Of a DNA stretch of 64,000 nucleotides, positions 2,748 through 14,823 are shown in pieces. Origin of the DNA: Eubacterium sp. Its GTDB lineage: Bacteria; Bacillota; Clostridia; Lachnospirales; Lachnospiraceae. The number at the start of each line of letters is the position of its first letter. Within the stretch, counting starts at the first letter, position 1. Below the pieces are notes generated by a model. It worked only from the letters and a program-made list of their open reading frames with translations. It made no database searches and was not told where the DNA came from. The stretch lies in NCBI GenBank assembly GCA_021769425.1, contig JAETSX010000010.1:1-64000 (forward strand), given 5' to 3'. The position numbers were made by a program, and so were the translations under genes.

Positions 2748-5700
2748 CTATTTTTTCCTAAACTTGTCATAGAAATATTTAGCCGTTGCTAACCGGTTTT
2801 TCTCCTCCAAATATTTCCTCCATTCATTCTTATATAAGAGTCTCAACATCTGCTCCATGAATTTCTTGTATTGCATAATGATTACTATTGGCTCAACCAT
2901 ATACTGGCTTCCGTCTGCGCCCATCTTAAATGTCGGCATCACATACAGCCCTTTTTCCCCTTTAACTTCATGTACATTATGCATATCCTTAAAATCGAAC
3001 TCTGCATTCGTAATCATGACTTCCACAGGTATATTGCTGATATGAGTAGCCGCAAGCATCCTCCTCACATACGCAAATGTAATCTTGGAATTGTTTGTTT
3101 CAAGGCTGTGCCTTTGTGCTCCCCCTATATTTTCATCTTCTCCCTTAAAATAATCCTCCTGCATCTTGGTATATGGTATAAAAATATATTTCGCTTTCTT
3201 ATCTTCCGATATATGCTTTGGCATTTTCTTATCATCGTCATCCCTGATTTTTATAATATACTTTTCATAATCCGCTGCATCGCCTTTACTGACAAAACTA
3301 TTGAAAAAAGCGAACACATTCAATTCCTTTCTTACAGGCTTTGGCAATTCATCTGCCCCATCTTTCACCATAATCCCTTCATCAGCAACTGCCTCTTTAA
3401 AATAGCATCTGCTATATGCTTCTTTCACTTCTTCTGGCAGGCATACATTACACCTTGAGGAGACGATATATGTGCCTTCGCACCCAGACAAACTTTCAAT
3501 AAACCGATCCATATTAAATCCATCCGGTACATAGTTTGCACTATCTGTTTCTGTATAGGGTATGTCTAGATACCATACAGTGCCTTTTTTATTGTAATTC
3601 CCTCTTTTTAATAAATTTATGGCGTCTTCCTGTCTAACCTCAACATCTTTAAAAATTTCCGCCCCATATTTCAGCCGCTCCTTATAACTTCTCATAAATT
3701 CAGCGATCTTATCAATTGTACAATGGTTATAAAAATGACGCTGGGGAAGGGAATTATACATCAGAAATAAAACCGCCAGATCTACATCGTTAATCCCTTG
3801 ATTTTTAACCACCTCCATATCTTTCTCCCCGGTCAACGTTAAGTATAATGCTTTCATTTTAAGCATGAATACATGCATGTACCGCTCAACGTTCTGAAAT
3901 ACCCGAACGTCAAAATCACCGCCAATATTATTATTAAATATCCCATGTATCTCATCCATGCGATCCTCAAACCGCATTGCCTTATTTGAATCCACACCCT
4001 GGTTCTTAACCCTATACTCTTTCACCTTTTTATTATATGCCTCTACATAACAATCCTCACATTCTTTCACTGGCCTCTCCAAAATTTCCTTTACAGCTAC
4101 AATTTGTTTATTCCTATCTTCTGAAACTTTTTTATTGCCCAGATATTTTAAAAACTTCCCAAAAAACCATCCCATAGTGTCATCTTCCTTGTTTGTGGAA
4201 AAAGCACTGGCTATAATTTTATCCACCTTTTCCTCTAAGGAATTAAGCTTTTTCTCATCTTGCAGGCATTGATAAAAAGCAACATTCATAATGCCCAAGT
4301 CATTATATACCTGTGTTGGGTAATTTCCTATGCCTTGGTAATATGCATTCATTGTATAAGCCCCAGAACCTCCAAAAGCATCTACCACACACTCTGTATC
4401 CTTCGCGTCTCTTCTCATCTCTACAATACTGTTTGCCATCCTGCACAAGAATTCAGGCTTTATCCCTTGGTAATATGGAACTGCTTTGAGGTATGGCCTA
4501 TAATCATATATCACTTCCTTTACGGGAGACATATCCCCCATTGACTCCTTGCAAACAGAATATTTTTGCAAAAAACTGTTATATTCATTCTCCAATTCGC
4601 TCTCGTTCTGGCATCCAACATGGCCATTTTCTGAACCATATTGGGGTTTCACTTCGGTTGCTAAATATTTATATGCTTTTTCATAGAGCATGTATTTTAT
4701 AAGCCTTGGCAGATCTTTTTCAAAAATTCCGCACTGCTTCCTCAAGATATTGTCACTGCTGCAATACCCTAAAGCCATTAAAAATTCCTTGGCCAACTGT
4801 TCCTGACCAAGATTGTTATCAGACAATCCCCCTATTTTCTTCAATCTTTCCAGCAGCTTAGCCTCATATTCATCAACATCCCTCTGTGTAACCCATATAT
4901 GGTCTGGCATTTCCACCAAAGTGGATGCCATCAAAAGCCAATCTTCCTTTGTAAATTTCCTGCGCGTTTTTCTAAAAACATGTTTAACCTCTTTCAGATC
5001 GCCATTCTTTTCTCTCCCAACAAATGCCCATTCTTTTCCCTTAAGCTCTAATGGGTCTTTTATCCTTTTTGATGAGTCACACACGCCCATCCTAAGAAGA
5101 GATTTCATTGACATCAGTTCTGGGTAAATATACTTTCCTTCGCAATATGTAAGCAAGTCTGTATACCTTTTCTTCTCACCTTTATTTGACACTTTGCACG
5201 CAGAAGTTTTTCTTTCTATCTCTTCCTTTAACCGTTTCATTCCCTCCTGATCGGCAAAATACCGAATTTCACTCTTGTCTTCTTCCTTTTTATCCAGTTT
5301 CTTTATCCCCGCCTGGTTTTCTGCTTTTCCATTCCTATAATTCACTCCTAAACTCCTATAGCTTATTTCTCCCGTCAGGCACCAGGAACAAAATGTTTTT
5401 ATATCTTCTTCACGTACATGAAAACGTTCTTTTGGTTTTCGCCCAGATTTATCTGCTTTCCTTACATCTGACATGTAAAAACAAATTTTTTTGATGTCAT
5501 CCAGAAGCTCTGCCTCACTTACGTTCAATGCTTTTGCATACTGTTCAAAATTTTCACAATTGTGATACCTCAAGACAGACTGCCAATCATTCTGCAACAC
5601 CCGCAAGAATTGCCGATACCCCTTCCGTTCCACGTCCCGCACATAAATTGCACAGCCTGTACGTTCAAAGGTTTCTGTATCATAATAAAATCCAATGCTT

Positions 5701-6404
5701 TCCGCCTCATTAAGCTCTTCTGCACTGAAAAGTTCCAATATTTCAAGTCTCTGCCATTCTGAATAATAATCTTTCTTTAATAGTCCGTCTTCCGGCAACG
5801 GTTCCAAATACATTGCAGGCGGTATAGGTAAGCTTTTATCCTTTTCCCACTCTTCTTTATCCTCTTTCAAATCCTGTTGGGTTTCTTCCAATTCCTCAAA
5901 ATCAGATCCCAACAATTTTTCAATGGCATCTTTTGTCAGTGCGACATTCTTGGGGTAATGCTGCCATATAATCCTCGCCTTTTTCTCCCCGCTCTTTGAA
6001 TTACGCAACACTCTCCCGACACGTTGGCGCAAGACAACTTGGGATCTTGTCGGGGCATATAAGTAGATGGTGTTCAATTTGGGTATGTCTATCCCCTCAT
6101 TCAACATATTGACACCAACCAATATTTTATTTTCATCTTTACAGTCTTTAAAATCCTTTAGCTCATCTTCATCTTTTGTAAGGATAAATATGTTCTGCAC
6201 ATCCATCTTCGTAAGGAATTCTTTGAGCTTCCTTGCCTTTTCTATCTTGTCAACAATAACTGCTGTCTGCCCCCAACTGTTATAATACTTCTTTATCCTG
6301 GCTGCAAGGTATTCCATTTCAAGCTCATCTGTATCTTCCTTTTCCTGTGGTTTCTCATGCCCCATGCCATCAAAATCCGTTACTTTTATGATGCTAGGTC
6401 TCAC
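2748..6404 (-). CDS. C-terminal part of helicase / D12-class adenine DNA methyltransferase fusion (downstream frame)
   Basis: This frame (1218 residues from a GTG at 6404) continues the helicase interrupted in the gene at 6394-7200. Residues about 94-134 carry helicase motifs V and VI (NEGIDIP and RQRVGRVLR). A middle region, about 200-640, is unrecognised. A D12/Dam-like adenine methyltransferase follows: motif I VDAFGGSG at about 674-681, a VYNDL element near 699, and a catalytic-motif equivalent DIPY (usually DPPY) at about 947-950. The separation of motif I and DIPY, about 265 residues, is long for the family. The last ~180 residues are unrecognised. There is no ribosome binding site at the GTG, so this is most simply the 3' part of one ~1,490-residue gene broken by a single base. 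Family knowledge suggests restriction-like defence; modification specificity cannot be read. Confidence 0.8.
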   Translation of the reverse strand: MRPSIIKVTDFDGMGHEKPQEKEDTDELEMEYLAARIKKYYNSWGQTAVIVDKIEKARKLKEFLTKMDVQNIFILTKDEDELKDFKDCKDENKILVGVNMLNEGIDIPKLNTIYLYAPTRSQVVLRQRVGRVLRNSKSGEKKARIIWQHYPKNVALTKDAIEKLLGSDFEELEETQQDLKEDKEEWEKDKSLPIPPAMYLEPLPEDGLLKKDYYSEWQRLEILELFSAEELNEAESIGFYYDTETFERTGCAIYVRDVERKGYRQFLRVLQNDWQSVLRYHNCENFEQYAKALNVSEAELLDDIKKICFYMSDVRKADKSGRKPKERFHVREEDIKTFCSWCLTGEISYRSLGVNYRNGKAENQAGIKKLDKKEEDKSEIRYFADQEGMKRLKEEIERKTSACKVSNKGEKKRYTDLLTYCEGKYIYPELMSMKSLLRMGVCDSSKRIKDPLELKGKEWAFVGREKNGDLKEVKHVFRKTRRKFTKEDWLLMASTLVEMPDHIWVTQRDVDEYEAKLLERLKKIGGLSDNNLGQEQLAKEFLMALGYCSSDNILRKQCGIFEKDLPRLIKYMLYEKAYKYLATEVKPQYGSENGHVGCQNESELENEYNSFLQKYSVCKESMGDMSPVKEVIYDYRPYLKAVPYYQGIKPEFLCRMANSIVEMRRDAKDTECVVDAFGGSGAYTMNAYYQGIGNYPTQVYNDLGIMNVAFYQCLQDEKKLNSLEEKVDKIIASAFSTNKEDDTMGWFFGKFLKYLGNKKVSEDRNKQIVAVKEILERPVKECEDCYVEAYNKKVKEYRVKNQGVDSNKAMRFEDRMDEIHGIFNNNIGGDFDVRVFQNVERYMHVFMLKMKALYLTLTGEKDMEVVKNQGINDVDLAVLFLMYNSLPQRHFYNHCTIDKIAEFMRSYKERLKYGAEIFKDVEVRQEDAINLLKRGNYNKKGTVWYLDIPYTETDSANYVPDGFNMDRFIESLSGCEGTYIVSSRCNVCLPEEVKEAYSRCYFKEAVADEGIMVKDGADELPKPVRKELNVFAFFNSFVSKGDAADYEKYIIKIRDDDDKKMPKHISEDKKAKYIFIPYTKMQEDYFKGEDENIGGAQRHSLETNNSKITFAYVRRMLAATHISNIPVEVMITNAEFDFKDMHNVHEVKGEKGLYVMPTFKMGADGSQYMVEPIVIIMQYKKFMEQMLRLLYKNEWRKYLEEKNRLATAKYFYDKFRKK

Positions 6405-6422
6405 AAAGGTATGGAGGTTTGC
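6394..6422 (-). other. Frameshift point between helicase halves
   Basis: In the upstream frame the minus strand reads AAT AGC AAA CCT CCA and runs into TAG. In the +1 frame it reads AAC CTC CAT ACC TTT GTG, coding LHTFV followed by RPSIIKVTDF, and joins helicase motifs IV-VI. The sequence shows no classic slippery heptamer. A one-base insertion is the simplest reading; a sequencing error or programmed +1 shift is possible. Confidence 0.7.
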
Positions 6423-7200
6423 TATTAATTAAATCTTTTATGTCAACAAGGGCAATCCTATTCCAACTCTCTCTTTCATCTTCTCCAATTTCACTTTCTC
6501 CATAATGTGATTTTATATGGCGCAGTTCTTTCGTATCCTTGTCATAGCCGTCTTTGAACCACTCGTTAAAGACATCCAGATACTTATCACCACGGTATAC
6601 TGTCGCGGTAAGCCCTATAATGCCAAACCTATTGACCTTATAATCCACCTCCACTTCCCCTCTATATTTTCTTCCGCCTATCAGCGATGACAGAAAATCG
6701 TTTACTCTGCTCGCACCAATGTGGTGTGCTTCATTATATACAATATATAGTTTCCTTCCCCCTTCTTGACTCTTGTTTACCCATTCTTCAAATTTACTGT
6801 TCAATTTCAACGCAACCCCGGCAATCGTCTGCACACTTGCAAAAATAACATTGGTGCCTGCATCTATACAGTCCACTTTCTCCCCTTGGCCTTTCCCCCA
6901 TATGTACTGGAAAGTATATTCATTGTCAGCCTTTAATTTCATAAATTCCCCAGCTGTCTGTTCCAGCAATGCAATCCTGTCCGCAATCCACAAAATCCTT
7001 GCCCCTTTCTTTAGGGCCTCCAGACAAAATTGGATGCCGATATACGTCTTTCCGCCGCCTGTTGGCAAATTAACTATAGTCGAAAATGCTTCTTTTTCCT
7101 TATCCATTGTCCTAAGCACTTCTAATGTTTCCTTTTGATAATCCCTCAACTCTAAAATGTCATTTCCACCACATAAAAGTCTATCTGTCTTTTTCTCCAT
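6394..7200 (-). CDS. N-terminal part of superfamily 2 helicase (upstream frame of a frameshifted gene)
   Basis: Start at the ATG at 7200, seven bases after GAGGAG; that site overlaps the stop region of the upstream gene, so the two are coupled. The 268 residues hold a ResIII-type ATPase half: Q-motif-like LRDYQ near 18, Walker A LPTGGGKT at 45-52, motif Ia WIADRIALLEQ near 71-81, and motif III GLTAT. Motif II reads NEAH (Asn156) where the family has DEAH, a one-base change that would be expected to impair ATP hydrolysis. The frame ends at a TAG just as the next helicase half opens in the +1 frame (6394-6404 overlap). Deleting one base, for example an A in the AAA near 6418, would join them. 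Confidence 0.85.
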   Translation of the reverse strand: MEKKTDRLLCGGNDILELRDYQKETLEVLRTMDKEKEAFSTIVNLPTGGGKTYIGIQFCLEALKKGARILWIADRIALLEQTAGEFMKLKADNEYTFQYIWGKGQGEKVDCIDAGTNVIFASVQTIAGVALKLNSKFEEWVNKSQEGGRKLYIVYNEAHHIGASRVNDFLSSLIGGRKYRGEVEVDYKVNRFGIIGLTATVYRGDKYLDVFNEWFKDGYDKDTKELRHIKSHYGESEIGEDERESWNRIALVDIKDLINSKPPYLCET

Positions 7201-7204
7201 GGCT

Positions 7205-8893
7205 TTACTCCTCAAAAGCATCCATCATGTATAATTGCAATTCTTTGTCTATCAGCCGCATCCCATATTCCTCAGCGGCAGCTCCCCGATCATGTACAAT
7301 CACAAGGATATTCCTTTTTTGCATCAACCCGCTGAGATACTGCTGGTTCATCTCATGTGCCTCTGTATCAATATATAACATTACGGGTCTTACCTGTTTT
7401 CCTTTTGGAAATAAGTTCTTTCCCACATACTTCTCAAATCCCTGTATGAGATCCCCTTGATCAGGCATTATATAAATATGGCTTTTTTTGCAGGTATGCT
7501 CGTCTATATCCTCTTTCTTGCCGCTTGGCGGGGCATTCAAGGCATCTATATATGGGAGCAGCCCTCCCTTTATATACTCCAGAGCTTCTTTTATGTCGCC
7601 CTCGCTAACTTCCCTGCCTTTGAATGCCTCCACAATCCAAAAACATGCGGCAGCTTTTATCTTCACTGCATAGGGTGAATCTGTTGCAATCACATTTTCA
7701 TTTACCCATTTGCTGATACAATCCACCCAATATTTGAGTGAGTTATCCATCCTAAACAAGCTTCTCACATTTATGTACGCCAGCAGCTCTGGCTCCAAGT
7801 TTTCTATCTTACCCATAGCATCTTTCGCATAATTGTCAATCAATTCTTCTATTGGAAGATACTGTTCCTCCTCATCTCTTCTACTTTCCAACTCCACTTC
7901 CTCCATATCATCCAATTCATATGCCCCAAAATGCTCATCTTCATATTCAATTCCTGCCATATTGTATTCTGACCTAAGCATATCCTCCGCCTTTTCCACT
8001 GTTTCCACTGCAAACTGATATTCCTTCCTTAATCTTTGGAATGTGTCATATTTTCCTGCTTCTCTCAAATAAGGCTTCATATCCTCTTCACTAGACAGAA
8101 TTTTCCTAAACATCCTCTCTTCCATCTTTAAAGTATCCTGCATAGTGAGCAGTTTCTCTATTTCCTCCCTGATGCGGCCCGCAGGTTGAAGCCTGCCTTC
8201 GTCATTAAACAGCATATTCCCATGTGCAAAAATGTAACGCGCATAAGAATAGTTGGCTCTCTGAAAGCTCTCGACATCATCATCTTCAAATTCTAAAGGG
8301 CTGGTCAGTATAAACTTTTTATTGTCGGTGCTGGAAATATTTGCAAATATATCCAAATCATTTGTAATTCCAATAAAACCCGTGCAGCAATAAGCAGCCT
8401 GGAGTTTCCTGTTTATGCACTCTGCAATCTTGATCCCCAATGTATCGCTGCTCCACGGCACTAACTTTTTCTTCCTGCCTTCCATCTTCAGCTTTGTGAA
8501 CGCATGATAGCTCCTTTCTGGAAAAATATCCAGTTTTGAAAAATCATTTGCTCTCAATCCAAAAATAGACACCAATTTTCCCTGGGGCAGATTGTACTTG
8601 TCAATCAGCAGATAACAACAGGCAAATATGAACTGAACCTCCTCCCTGATATGCATGCTCTTTCTGTTTCCTGCTCTCCTGATTGATTCCACAATATGTC
8701 CACTGATTATTTCATATTCTTTTTTCAACGCTCCAATATCAAAATCCGATGCACATCCCTCCTCCAGCTTCTTAAAAAAGCAATTAAACTCACCCCTTAT
8801 TTTCCCCATATCCGACGGACAGATGGCAATATCAGCAACTTCCTTATACATTTTATATTCAAAAGGCACACTATTTTTATATATAAGCTCCAT
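7205..8893 (-). CDS. Unrecognised 562-residue cassette protein upstream of the helicase/methyltransferase
   Basis: Start set at the ATG at 8893, seven bases after AAGGGGGTG; an upstream extension in frame runs through the leader repeats and has no such site. The protein begins MELIYKNSVPFEYK, has no signal peptide or membrane segment, and is rich in Glu, Asp and Lys. About residues 330-365 form a strongly acidic stretch (DDMEEVELESRRDEEE). The last ~70 residues include RPVMLYIDTEAHE and KRNILVIVHDRG, which look like alternating beta strands and helices of a Rossmann-like domain. I do not recognise the family. Its stop lies four bases before the helicase ATG, so the two are an operon and probably act together; a sensor, nuclease or structural partner role is speculation. 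Confidence 0.8.
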   Translation of the reverse strand: MELIYKNSVPFEYKMYKEVADIAICPSDMGKIRGEFNCFFKKLEEGCASDFDIGALKKEYEIISGHIVESIRRAGNRKSMHIREEVQFIFACCYLLIDKYNLPQGKLVSIFGLRANDFSKLDIFPERSYHAFTKLKMEGRKKKLVPWSSDTLGIKIAECINRKLQAAYCCTGFIGITNDLDIFANISSTDNKKFILTSPLEFEDDDVESFQRANYSYARYIFAHGNMLFNDEGRLQPAGRIREEIEKLLTMQDTLKMEERMFRKILSSEEDMKPYLREAGKYDTFQRLRKEYQFAVETVEKAEDMLRSEYNMAGIEYEDEHFGAYELDDMEEVELESRRDEEEQYLPIEELIDNYAKDAMGKIENLEPELLAYINVRSLFRMDNSLKYWVDCISKWVNENVIATDSPYAVKIKAAACFWIVEAFKGREVSEGDIKEALEYIKGGLLPYIDALNAPPSGKKEDIDEHTCKKSHIYIMPDQGDLIQGFEKYVGKNLFPKGKQVRPVMLYIDTEAHEMNQQYLSGLMQKRNILVIVHDRGAAAEEYGMRLIDKELQLYMMDAFEE

Positions 8894-9019
8894 GTTTACA
8901 CCCCCTTGGAAATAGTTTACTATAAATAATACTTTTCCGCCAGAAAAAATCTTCTTTATAAGGAATTTCCCTTTGCAGTACAACGATAAACTTCTAGCAC
9001 AGCATGCCTTTTCCCTTTC

Positions 9020-9235
9020 TTTTTTTAATAAACATACCCCAAAATTTTCCAATAATACTTTCCCTGAAGTATAGTCATAAGGTTTCAGAACTGACCTCTC
9101 TTCTCCTTTTTCATTTTAAGAATAAACATACCCTAAAAAATATTTTTCAAAAGTTCAGAGGTATTTAATGACATTCCAGAACCGCCATACCTTCTCCCCT
9201 TTTCTTTTCAACAAATAAACATACCCTAAAATATC
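9020..9235 (-). repeat. Three-copy 93-94 bp leader repeat upstream of the defence-like cassette
   Basis: AATAAACATACCC occurs at 9027, 9121 and 9214, spaced 94 and 93 bp. On the minus strand each copy reads (T)TTTAGGGTATGTTTATT followed by a purine-rich, ribosome-binding-like block (AAGGGGAGAAGG, AAAGGAGAAGAGAGG, AAAGGGAAAAGG) and then diverged sequence. Copies 2 and 3 share AAGTATTATT with the segment just upstream of the cassette ATG. It lies in the 5' leader of the cassette, so a regulatory role is plausible. Confidence 0.75.
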
Positions 9236-9494
9236 CAACAACAGTCCTTAAATTTCTCACATATAGCTCTTGTTACACTACGATGAAATATTATCAGCAT
9301 ATTAAAATCGCTCCAATTCAAAGGAAAGGCTCGAAGTACATCCATAAAACCGAACCCACAGCTTGAAAAAACCCCTCAAGCCCGCATAAAATGGGCATTT
9401 GTACGCCAAAAAGCCTCCTTTCCCGGCAGGGGCTATGCATACATCCATACCACCCAAATAGGGCTACGCAGTGCATCAATGACCCCCAGAAATA
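9236..9494. other. Gap between cassette leader and prfA terminator
   Basis: No convincing gene. The likely promoter of the minus-strand cassette should be here; candidates such as TTGAAT with TATGCT or GATAAT are poorly spaced, so I do not place one. The stretch after the prfA terminator is where AT-rich accessory DNA gives way to core genes. Confidence 0.4.
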
Positions 9495-9531
9495 GGAAAA
9501 GACAGTCGATGAAGCTGTCAAAGACTGTCCT
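9495..9531 (-). terminator. Rho-independent terminator after prfA
   Basis: On the minus strand GGACAGTC and GACTGTC form the stem (9523-9530 and 9501-9507) with a loop that itself contains GACAGCTTCATC, followed by TTTTCC. It lies about 70 bases past the prfA stop and marks the boundary of the core operon. Confidence 0.75.
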
Positions 9532-9597
9532 TTTTCCATATTTATTCAATTCCCGTACTAGCCGGACATCCCCAGAAACCCAGCAAAATCAAGGCTT

Positions 9598-10674
9598 TCA
9601 GGCTTTATCTTCAAAGCTGCTTAGCTTCGCAGCCTGATCGGCTGCAATACACGCATCCACAATCTCCTGAATATCCCCGTTCATCACCTTATCCAGCTTA
9701 TACAGCGTCAGGTTGATTCTGTGATCTGTCACGCGCCCCTGAGGAAAGTTGTAAGTCCTGATTTTCTCCGAACGATCTCCCGTGCCAATCTGGCTCCGTC
9801 TGGCTTCCGCTTCCGCATCATGCTGCTTCTGGCACTCGATGTCATAAAGCTTTGCACGAAGCAAGGCAAACGCCTTATCCTTATTCTGAAGCTGTGACTT
9901 CTCCGTCTGACTGTAAATCACGATTCCCGTGGGATAATGGGTCAGGCGAACCGCAGAATCGGTGGTGTTGACACACTGCCCTCCGTTTCCGGATGCACGC
10001 ATCACGTCAATGCGGATATCTTTTTCATCAATAACCACATCCACTTCTTCTGCCTCCGGCATAACTGCAACAGTAATGGTGGAGGTGTGAATCCGTCCGC
10101 CGGACTCTGTTTCCGGAACCCTCTGTACCCGGTGTACGCCGGACTCGTATTTCATCACGGAATAAGCTCCCTGTCCGGTTATCATAAAAGTGACATTTTT
10201 CATGCCGCCGATGCCGATTTCCTCACACTCCATAGTTTCCACCTTCCAGCGGCGGCCTTCTGCAAAATGCACATACATCCGGTAAATTTCCGCTGCAAAT
10301 AATGCAGCCTCGTCTCCGCCGGCCCCGGCGCGGATTTCCACGATAACGTTTTTATCATCATTTGGATCCTTGGGCAGCAGCAGGATCTTCAGCTTCTTTT
10401 CCAGTTCTTCCACCTTTGCCTTGGAATCATTCAGTTCTTCCTTGGCAAGCTCCCGCATTTCCTCATCGCTTTCCTCTTCCAACATAGCAAGGGAATCCTC
10501 AATATTTTGCTTCGCCTGTTTATATTCCTTGTAAGATTCCACAATAGGTGCAAGATCGCTCTGCTCCTTCATCAATTTGCGGAACCGATTGGTGTCGTTT
10601 GCCACATCCGGTTCACTTAACTGATTCATAATCTCTTCAAAACGAAGAAGGATATCTTCTAATCTGTCAAACAT
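9598..10674 (-). CDS. prfA: Peptide chain release factor 1
   Basis: The 358-residue product recognises UAA and UAG stop codons on the ribosome and triggers peptide release. Start chosen at the ATG at 10674, which has AGAGGAAGAG upstream and gives [14 protein letters not shown], the normal RF1 beginning; the frame stays open 46 codons further but that part is made of tandem-repeat DNA. The RF1-type codon-reading element sits in [14 protein letters not shown] (P-E-T matching the PxT signature), and the catalytic GGQ in [18 protein letters not shown]. It is followed by a terminator and preceded by prmC, the methyltransferase that modifies this GGQ glutamine, the standard pairing. Confidence 0.97.
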
Positions 10675-10708
10675 TTTTCTCTTCCTCTCTGTCTGTTTCG
10701 CTGTATCT

Positions 10709-13089: not shown

Positions 13090-14823
13090 TTAGGAAAGTT
13101 TTGTCTTTTTTATCATCTGGCAGAACTCCCGGTTGCTGTTGGTACGCACAAACAGATTCAAAATCGTCTCCACAGCCTCATCTGTTTTCATGCCGTTGAT
13201 GGCCCGGCGCATAACCTCTACCGCTTCCTGCTCTTCCCGGTTCAGCAGCAGATCTTCCCTCCGGGTTCCGGAGCCGGTAATATCCACTGCCGGGAAAATC
13301 CTCCGCTCGGAAAGCTTGCGGTCTAAAATCAGCTCCATATTGCCGGTTCCCTTAAATTCTTCATAGATAACATCATCCATACGGCTGCCGGTATCCACTA
13401 ACGCAGTGGCAAGAATCGTAATACTGCCTCCCTCACGCATGTTGCGGGCTGCGCCAAAGAACCGCTTCGGCATATGTAACGCCGCCGGATCAATACCGCC
13501 GGATAACGTTCTTCCGCTGGGAGGGACAATCAGATTGTACGCCCTGGCCAGACGGGTAATGCTGTCTAAAAGGATCATCACATCTTTTCCATGCTCTACC
13601 AGACGCCTTGCCCGTTCAATTACCATCTCCGATACACGTTTGTGATGTTCCGGAAGCTCATCAAAGGTAGAGTAAATCACTTCCACATTCCTTCCTTCAA
13701 TTGCTTCTTTGATATCCGTCACTTCCTCGGGACGTTCATCGATCAAAAGAATAATTAAATGCATCTCCGGATTATTTCTGGTAACTGCCTTTGCCACCTG
13801 TTTCAAAAGCGTGGTCTTTCCTGCCTTGGGCTGTGATACAATCATTCCGCGCTGCCCTTTTCCAATTGGCGATACAATGTCCATAATCCGCATGGCTACC
13901 GCTGTCCGATCTGTTTCCAGCCGGATTCTCTCATTGGGAAAAATCGGGGTCAGATCTTCAAAATTCGGGCGTTTCAAGATCTCGGAAGGATGGTTTCCGT
14001 TGATGCTCTTAATGTACAAAAGTGCGCTGAACTTCTCCTGCTGGGTCTTCACTCTTGTATTTCCATGAATAATATCGCCTGTTTTCAGGCCGAATTTACG
14101 AATTTGGGAAGGGGATACATAGACGTCATGATCCCCCGGAAGATAGTTCTCACAGCGGATAAATCCATATCCATCCGGCATGACTTCCAGAATTCCGTGG
14201 GCGCTGACCCCGCTGTCCAGCTCCGGATTGTCTATCTCGATACCGTCTGCCGTGATAATCCGGTTAGGCTTACGCTCCTGATTCTGCGTTCTGCGTTCCT
14301 CTCTCCTGTCTTCCTGCCCCTGTATCTTCTGTTCCTCTTTTCTGCCTTCTGCCGGCTGGATTCTCCGTTCCTCACGTCCGCCCTCTGCCGGCTGCGCTTT
14401 CCGCTCCTCACGTCCGCCCTCTGCCGGCTGCGCTTTCCGCTCCTCACGTCCGCCCTCCGCCGGCTGCGCTTTCCGCTCCTCACGTCCGCCCTCCGCCGGC
14501 TGCGCTTTCCGCTCCTCACGTCCGCCCTCTGTCGGCTGCGCTTTCCGCTCCTCACGTCCGCCCTCTGCCGGCTGGATTCTCCGTTCTTCTTCTGAATTCT
14601 GTACTTTCCGTTCTTCCCGTCTGTCTTCTGCAGGCTGCACTTTCCGGCCCTCTGCCGGCTGGGTCTGCTTTTCTTCATTTTCTCCGCCGGAAGATTTCTC
14701 GTCCTCCTGAAGCATCAATTCTACCAGTTCACGTTTCTTCAATCCGGAAAGATGCTTTAATCCCCTCGCTTTTGCTACTTCTCTTAACACAGTTACTGAT
14801 AAACTCTCATACTTTTCTCTCAT
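13090..14823 (-). CDS. rho: Transcription termination factor Rho with repeat-rich N-terminal insert
   Basis: The 577-residue RNA-dependent ATPase ends transcription by translocating along RNA. The start has AAAAGGAGAAAG upstream. Order: Rho N-terminal helical domain (about 1-45, [20 protein letters not shown]), a low-complexity insert (about 45-185) of [12 protein letters not shown] repeats, the cold-shock-like RNA-binding domain ([15 protein letters not shown]), then the ATPase with Walker [12 protein letters not shown] and Walker [15 protein letters not shown]. Inserts between N-terminal and RNA-binding domains are common in Rho of Gram-positive bacteria with large genomes, but this one is built of nearly perfect 36-bp repeats. 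Confidence 0.96.
14350..14590 (-). repeat. 36-bp in-frame repeat in rho, six or so copies
   Basis: A 12-residue unit, [12 protein letters not shown], is repeated five to six times with few differences; the DNA unit contains TCCGCCCTCTGCCGGCTGCG on the plus strand at 36-bp spacing. Diverged copies extend either side. Being in frame and near identical, it should vary in copy number between strains. Confidence 0.9.

Follow-up and report, generated by a model that had tools for sequence, protein, structure and literature searches.

What are the two adjacent genes, here called A and B, that lie 3' of prfA in a Eubacterium sp. genome (Lachnospiraceae), and what did they once do? They are found in a stretch of 64,000 nucleotides (GenBank assembly GCA_021769425.1, contig JAETSX010000010.1, positions 1 to 64,000 of the forward strand), which we call the window and whose first base is a contig end of the source assembly (4.9 Mb in 228 contigs). 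A preliminary description, made from the letters alone, had proposed a new defence cassette composed of an unfamiliar 562-residue protein and a helicase-adenine methyltransferase fusion. As detailed below, the pair is real and rare, and probably undescribed. That A-B is a genus-restricted, restriction-modification-like anti-phage cassette, carried as cargo at the prfA site and decayed in each copy seen, is a reading to which we give an even chance. On the minus strand prfA is followed by a spacer of about 700 bp, A, the two parts of B (B1 and B2), and finally, as far as the end of the contig, 2.7 kb in which open frames are few (cf. Table 1).

Gene B combines a helicase with a D12-like methyltransferase

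The hallmarks of a superfamily 2 (SF2) helicase are two RecA-like halves with Walker A, DExH, TAT and QxxGRxxR motifs. A helicase of this superfamily, of the ResIII/DEAD type, was found in B with its motifs located and its halves in two frames: Pfam indicated ResIII (1.3e-21) and DEAD (2.5e-9) in B1 and Helicase_C (1.1e-10) in B2, where RQRVGRVLR lies at 6003-6029. The DEAH position reads NEAH, and PADLOC models match B at the helicase parts only.

No Pfam methyltransferase family matched B2, even at E 10; two PHROG models named 'DNA methyltransferase' did (phrog_56, 2.4e-9; phrog_1996, 9.2e-6). The comparison set consisted of three plasmid proteins, weak tblastn pairs of B2 (E 0.1, 0.2 and 3) that are MethyltransfD12 by Pfam. 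Using hhalign, this trio was aligned with B2 600-1218 at a probability of 94.6% (E 7.3e-8) over residues 911-982, on the motif IV side, where DIPY (B2 947-950) comes to lie under the DPPY common to all three proteins, and with B2 640-760 at 91.6% (E 8e-7) over FGGSG and YND, on the motif I side. Among the controls, 60 shuffles per stretch gave best probabilities of 1.1% and 0.7%, and 13 other window proteins, including PrmC, gave at best 1.8%. Profile similarity to the D12 class is therefore found around motif I and then motif IV, in that order, while the catalytic signature of the class, [DNS]PP[YFW], is absent at B2 947-950, and the DIPY found in place of DPPY makes methyltransferase activity uncertain. 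Motif I (B2 677-681) stands about 266 residues ahead of motif IV, and a motif I far before motif IV is the order of alpha-class methyltransferases. Both domain assignments of the preliminary description, SF2 helicase and D12-class adenine methyltransferase, are upheld by Pfam, PHROG and the controlled hhalign comparisons. The remainder of B2, residues 139-599 (461 residues) and the last 178 residues, matched nothing in PADLOC or PHROG at E 1; a phrog_16 match of whole B2 reaches residue 407 and is driven by the helicase part. Structure prediction of the methyltransferase region from one sequence gave a mean pLDDT of 35.1. A CRISPR repeat indicated by Rfam, searched at E up to 1, inside gene B was sub-threshold (30.8 bits vs a cut-off of 36) and was taken as a chance match.

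As sequenced, B occupies two frames, B1 meeting a stop at 6394 and B2 running on in another frame from a candidate GTG start that overlaps the end of B1, with no purine-rich ribosome-binding site ahead of the GTG as judged by eye. B2 is not a chance frame, since the other five frames of its stretch hold 33 to 124 stops. The phrog_16 profile covers B1 at positions 270-431 and B2 at 473-758, so the frame change separates one half of a single helicase from the other. We infer that B was originally a single chain composed of an SF2 motor and a D12-type adenine methyltransferase; unless the assembly errs, it is broken, and its product is probably inactive in the window genome. Of the claim that helicase and methyltransferase are joined in one gene, the presence of both domains stands and the single frame does not.

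Table 1. Coordinates of the A-B locus in the window and contents of the prfA site in other genomes of the genus
Feature	Location	Strand	Basis or remark
prfA	9598-10677	minus	NCBIfam TIGR00019
Leader between prfA and array	9299-9552	minus	blastn; common over its length to X68, G012, G013, G025
Upstream array, four units of about 34 nt	9263-9296, 9194-9227, 9101-9134, 9007-9040	minus	matrix, exact 13-mers
Gene A, 562 amino acids	7205-8893	minus	open reading frame; no known family
B1, first SF2 helicase half (PTGGGKT, NEAHH, TAT)	6394-7200	minus	ResIII, DEAD matches; ends at stop
B2, 1218 amino acids: helicase second half, unplaced middle, D12-like methyltransferase, unplaced C-terminus	2748-6404	minus	Helicase_C, PHROG, hhalign
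D12-like methyltransferase region of B	3285-4487	minus	motif I FGGSG 4362-4376; YND 4293-4307; motif IV DIPY 3555-3566
Second array, eight imperfect units of about 71-83 bp	243-854	minus	beyond B; any link to A-B cassette putative
A remnant in G013	L051 1641-1912		two frames; same site, behind three-unit array
AbiH at prfA site	G015, G024		G024 AbiH: marginal type I methyltransferase match in PADLOC
SNF2 + YhcG/PDC-S02 nuclease at prfA site	G007
HD-CE + GHKL ATPase at prfA site	G014, G016; ATPase part in G020		UPF0236 in one HD-CE locus
PIN at prfA site	G001
Transposase at prfA site	one locus (G025 insert)

Gene A is paired with B in a second species

Searches of Pfam, PADLOC, NCBIfam and PHROG at E 0.1 revealed no match for gene A, whose ATG is preceded by AAGGGGG, which bears out its description as a protein of no placed family. 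Profile searches of both proteins, recommended in the preliminary description, have thus left A without a family and resolved B into helicase and D12-like methyltransferase. By eye only, residues 102-121 of A (window 8531-8590) are helix-turn-helix-like. Structure prediction of A from two sequences gave a mean pLDDT of 38.2.

The second copy of the pair is found in Lachnospiraceae bacterium strain X68 (G003), a congener of the window genome. At the same site 3' of prfA, X68 carries a relative of A, 29% identical to gene A over full length, followed at once by a helicase start that shares 49% of 68 residues with B1. The segment NDLDIFANIS of gene A (residues 178-187, window 8333-8362) reads NDLDMFANIS in its counterpart. 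Readings of A as a nuclease, nucleotidyltransferase or Toprim protein, made by eye from NDLDxFANIS and C-terminal strands, were dropped, as they lacked profile support. In X68, homology to B ends 71 bases short of the contig end, and nothing more of B was detected elsewhere in X68. The last 75 bases of the contig have ten other near-full copies there (88-100% identity), which indicates that a repeated element interrupts B. The X68 gene is cut upstream of both the NEAH and the DIPY positions; the replacement of DEAH by NEAH and of DPPY by DIPY in the window may be natural or a sign of decay. The intact system implied at the outset is therefore not what we found: the window copy of B is broken, as is, differently, that of X68, and B is here at best a relic.

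The two gene junctions suggest that A and B are translationally coupled, as previously proposed: in the window the likely ATG of B (7200) lies 4 nt past the A stop with GAGGAG ahead of it, and in X68 the first helicase ATG lies within A, giving an overlap of 17 nt with its end. Both genomes with a full A keep it open next to a broken B. This combination speaks against a nuclease whose activity would be lethal in the absence of methylation by B, and in favour of A as a regulator, a specificity subunit or a conditional effector. A third genome of the genus, G013, holds an A remnant that is 64% (residues 1-42) and 55% (residues 45-91) identical to X68 A in different frames; it was absent from the first search of relatives' genomes with A and was found at the comparison of loci. 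Full A is thus present in 2 of 29 genus genomes and a remnant in one more. The pairing of the two genes, on which the original proposal depended, recurs at the same locus, and no homologue is a known restriction or conjugation system; both results come from one other species only.

The pair is rare

The genome samples used below (relatives, family, class, order) overlap, and the window's own genome is included in each count. Gene A was detected in 2 of 61 relatives' genomes (its own and X68), 1 of 397 family genomes and 1 of 387 order genomes. A two-row A profile matched 2 of 391 class genomes, one of which was judged a chance match: the hit in G571 (E 7e-4) is a coiled-coil gene by likely mreB, mreC and mreD, as judged by eye. 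B2 was found in 1 of 299 family genomes, at a cut-off of E 1e-15 that distant relatives could escape, and in 2 of 29 genus genomes, one with only a 55-residue helicase match; its last 619 residues were found in 1 of 391 class genomes (cut-off 0.001). Scans of genome contigs gave nothing for B2 and only X68 for the A profile, and six scans of viral contigs gave no match.

Among 72,556 plasmid and 50,697 phage records, A had no match (E 1e-3 for plasmids, E 1 for phages), X68 A had none in plasmids, and B2 had none in either set at 1e-6. When the cut-off was relaxed to E 5, the B2 matches listed were confined to brief stretches of helicase or methyltransferase. B1 alone has distant helicase relatives; at E 1e-3 they number 17 among the plasmid records and 330 among the phage records. 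By annotation, three of the matched plasmid helicases, from Deinococcus, Treponema and Arcobacter, have no fused methyltransferase or A-like neighbour; a methyltransferase gene lies near the Deinococcus one, on the opposite strand.

The site 3' of prfA holds variable cargo

prfA was detected in 28 of 29 genus genomes, and 26 loci were examined (window, X68 and 24 others), G009 and G010 having been left out with fewer than 290 bases after prfA. For cargo, 12 open reading frames from 9 of the 26 loci were scanned, hand-picked as likely cargo and not random; the remaining 17 loci were covered by a listing of open reading frames. This comparison revealed that the site is a variable cargo site with known defence genes in some congeners (cf. 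Table 1), the naming of genes by PADLOC being limited to the G015 AbiH and both G007 genes. Two of the 12 frames matched nothing in the scan. The HD-CE + GHKL ATPase proteins had no PADLOC match at any of their three prfA sites and are possibly another unnamed defence gene. These proteins are about 1000 amino acids long (L050 3157-6207, L062 1-3096 and, in two overlapping frames, L060 1402-4203). At L052 3177-3860 (G025), after the transposase insert, a 167-residue frame without a Pfam family precedes a truncated helicase-like start of about 50 residues.

The survey of homologous loci proposed in the preliminary description was fruitful in that it gave the pairing in X68 and a variable site with defence genes in relatives; it yielded only one further species with the pair. 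Among the open-access papers listed, none was relevant to a prfA-side hotspot. Within the window, the G+C content of A, B1 and B2 is 0.385-0.406, that of prfA, prmC and rho 0.458-0.517, and repeats lie on either side of the pair, in agreement with the AT-rich, repeat-laden DNA beside core genes noted before. The site may be mined for other unnamed systems in the genus.

A leader and direct repeats precede the A site

A leader of about 250 nt is complete in five of the 26 loci only (window, X68, G012, G013 and G025); in nine other loci the likeness extends no further than the first 126 nt, and 12 have no match, a comparison that suggests where the cargo begins. Between prfA and the A site, direct repeats of about 35 nt are present six times each in X68 and G012 and three times each in G013 and G025. 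A matrix built from these 18 units, none of them from the window genome, scored 7.0, 5.7, 2.4 and 0.7 in the window spacer, with a next best score of -6.9, and three of the four window units are exact GGGTATGTTTATT copies. None of 500 first-order simulations of the spacer reached the sum of the three best scores, and 8 of them reached the best single score. In a profile that included them, the window units were weak (E 0.09 to 2.9), so the likeness of the arrays is loose.

Leader and array occur together in 5 of the 26 loci, including all three with A or an A remnant. These five loci descend from a common ancestor, with G013 and G025 almost indistinguishable in this region, and do not count as independent witnesses. 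In G025 a transposase-bearing insert directly follows the array, and in G012 the contig ends, with no A, 138 nt past the start of the last unit. A type III toxin-antitoxin system has a repeat RNA before its toxin gene; such a reading of the upstream repeats was rejected, as 14 units gave three predicted pairs and no compensatory changes, and given this lack of RNA covariation DNA sites are the simpler reading. A CsrC match of Rfam in X68 lay far below the cut-off and was taken as chance.

Comparison with known systems

The preliminary description had set the layout apart from type I restriction, DISARM and BREX, and our searches agree. With PADLOC run on A and B only, neither matched a Drm protein of DISARM (DrmA, DrmB, DrmC) at E 0.1, and neither matched BrxC, PglX/BrxX or PglZ of BREX in PADLOC, Pfam or NCBIfam. 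As for type I systems (HsdR, HsdM, HsdS), A is unmatched and B matches R models at the helicase only. In the excerpts considered, a 2026 survey of BREX (PMC12839542) contains no such two-gene layout, and the titles and abstracts of the open-access papers listed describe neither a helicase-methyltransferase fusion of this kind nor such a two-gene system.

LlaGI and LlaBIII are type ISP restriction-modification enzymes, and type ISP methyltransferases are gamma-class. That of B, in contrast, is D12-like and has its motif I a long way ahead of motif IV, and gene A is extra. Type ISP enzymes also have a nuclease before the helicase, whereas no nuclease model matched B, whose ResIII match starts about 16 residues after the start of the protein. 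As far as the source excerpts go, a type ISP enzyme is one chain with an SF2 motor, a long middle part, a methyltransferase and a C-terminal part (PMC4666363), which is the same order as in the putative ancestral B chain and the nearest known order of domains. CglI, in the part of its description used here, is a two-protein restriction system of a nuclease, R.CglI, and a helicase-like ATPase, H.CglI (PMC5737866); A-B likewise comprises two proteins and includes a helicase-like ATPase, yet no nuclease was recognised in A and the methyltransferase is fused to the helicase in B. Compared with the D12 class (Pfam PF02086), the motif I and motif IV regions of B align by profile, whereas B has DIPY for DPPY, lies below the reach of Pfam and carries the domain behind a helicase. 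Finally, excerpts on RptR of E. coli describe direct repeats before a type I restriction operon as repressor sites (PMC12255303). The array in the spacer ahead of A-B resembles this arrangement; RptR, however, is a small separate repressor whose minimal site, TAGCTA, is unlike the window repeat, and DNA binding by A is putative.

What the cassette may have done

Alpha-class enzymes carry their target-recognition part between motifs I and IV, and the approximately 266 residues between these motifs in B would hold that function. Translated with B, A would act together with it; its most probable role is that of a DNA-binding regulator, a specificity subunit or else a conditional effector. The helix-turn-helix-like part of A may bind the direct repeats that precede gene A and thereby repress the operon. 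An A-B complex would then engage unmodified incoming DNA, which would be stopped by motor-driven remodelling or by cutting.

Several observations weigh against this anti-phage reading. The assignment to defence comes from domains and context, and the defence genes at the prfA site belong to other genomes. Full A is found in two species only, on which the pairing rests, and in both of them B is broken, so that no working system is among the copies found. No nuclease domain was recognised in A or B by Pfam, PADLOC, NCBIfam or PHROG, and NEAHH and DIPY deviate from the usual motifs, which makes the activity of even an intact B uncertain. Moreover, G012 and G025 have the array without A in the stretch seen; array and A are not strictly bound.

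The missing nuclease would be expected if the pair only modified or processed DNA, marking or remodelling host DNA for epigenetic or replicative purposes with A as a regulator and no restriction. The open A beside a broken B in both full-A genomes also suits such a role, as it misfits a toxic nuclease held in check by methylation. A sporadic occurrence (two full copies of A and a remnant in 29 genus genomes) at a site shared with defence genes fits conflict better than housekeeping, and we consider the modification-only role unlikely. Sporadic presence is equally element-like, and the helicase half is related to phage helicases (phrog_16, 1.5e-24, and the 330 phage records mentioned above), as if A and B were the relic of a phage, integrative element or plasmid whose replication, spread or counter-defence they served. 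A and the rest of B, however, have no full relative in the phage and plasmid records or in the six viral-contig scans, and the neighbourhood of the pair shows no recognisable integrase or structural gene, the contig ending 2.7 kb beyond B with the far side unseen; an origin of this kind seems to us rather improbable.

The break in B itself may be questioned, in that an assembly error, two cooperating chains B1 and B2, or ribosomal frame-shifting would each leave a functional gene. Both pieces are otherwise open, as a recent change or an error predicts, and the overlapping GTG would permit a separate B2. Nevertheless, this GTG has no visible ribosome-binding site, the break splits the two halves of one helicase, and the X68 copy of B has its own, different break, so that we judge an unbroken B quite improbable.

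Returning to the restriction-like cassette, a further, speculative step would be that it belongs to an undescribed ATP-dependent restriction class, in which a motor-D12 methyltransferase acts with a partner of about 560 residues and the array serves as the partner's operator or as reference sites for self and foreign DNA. We offer this tentatively and think it unlikely to hold. Between the two full-A species, divergence is seen in the array as well as in A, as expected of co-evolving partners, and to our knowledge the D12-type methyltransferase class is not usual in motor-fused enzymes. If intact relatives exist, they would make up a system of the restriction type whose partner family is new and for which the repeat array is an easy marker. 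In the two species seen so far, the motor gene of this defence-like cassette is broken in two different ways and the partner gene is open.

Other features of the window

Beyond B, the second array has in part a double period of about 155 bp and contains near-palindromes such as CATCCCCTATATGGGGGATG. It was unmatched in the other 25 loci, in which the far side of B is outside the data, and the sequence of positions 200-2700 occurs only once in the window genome. A 65-bp tandem repeat (2.6 copies) lies at 1713-1883. A minus-strand frame of 77 amino acids at 2163-2396, which had no NCBIfam match, lies behind a plausible ribosome-binding site and ahead of a hairpin-like stretch. On the other side of prfA, the rho gene (13090-14823, minus strand) encodes a protein with an N-terminal run of near-identical repeats.

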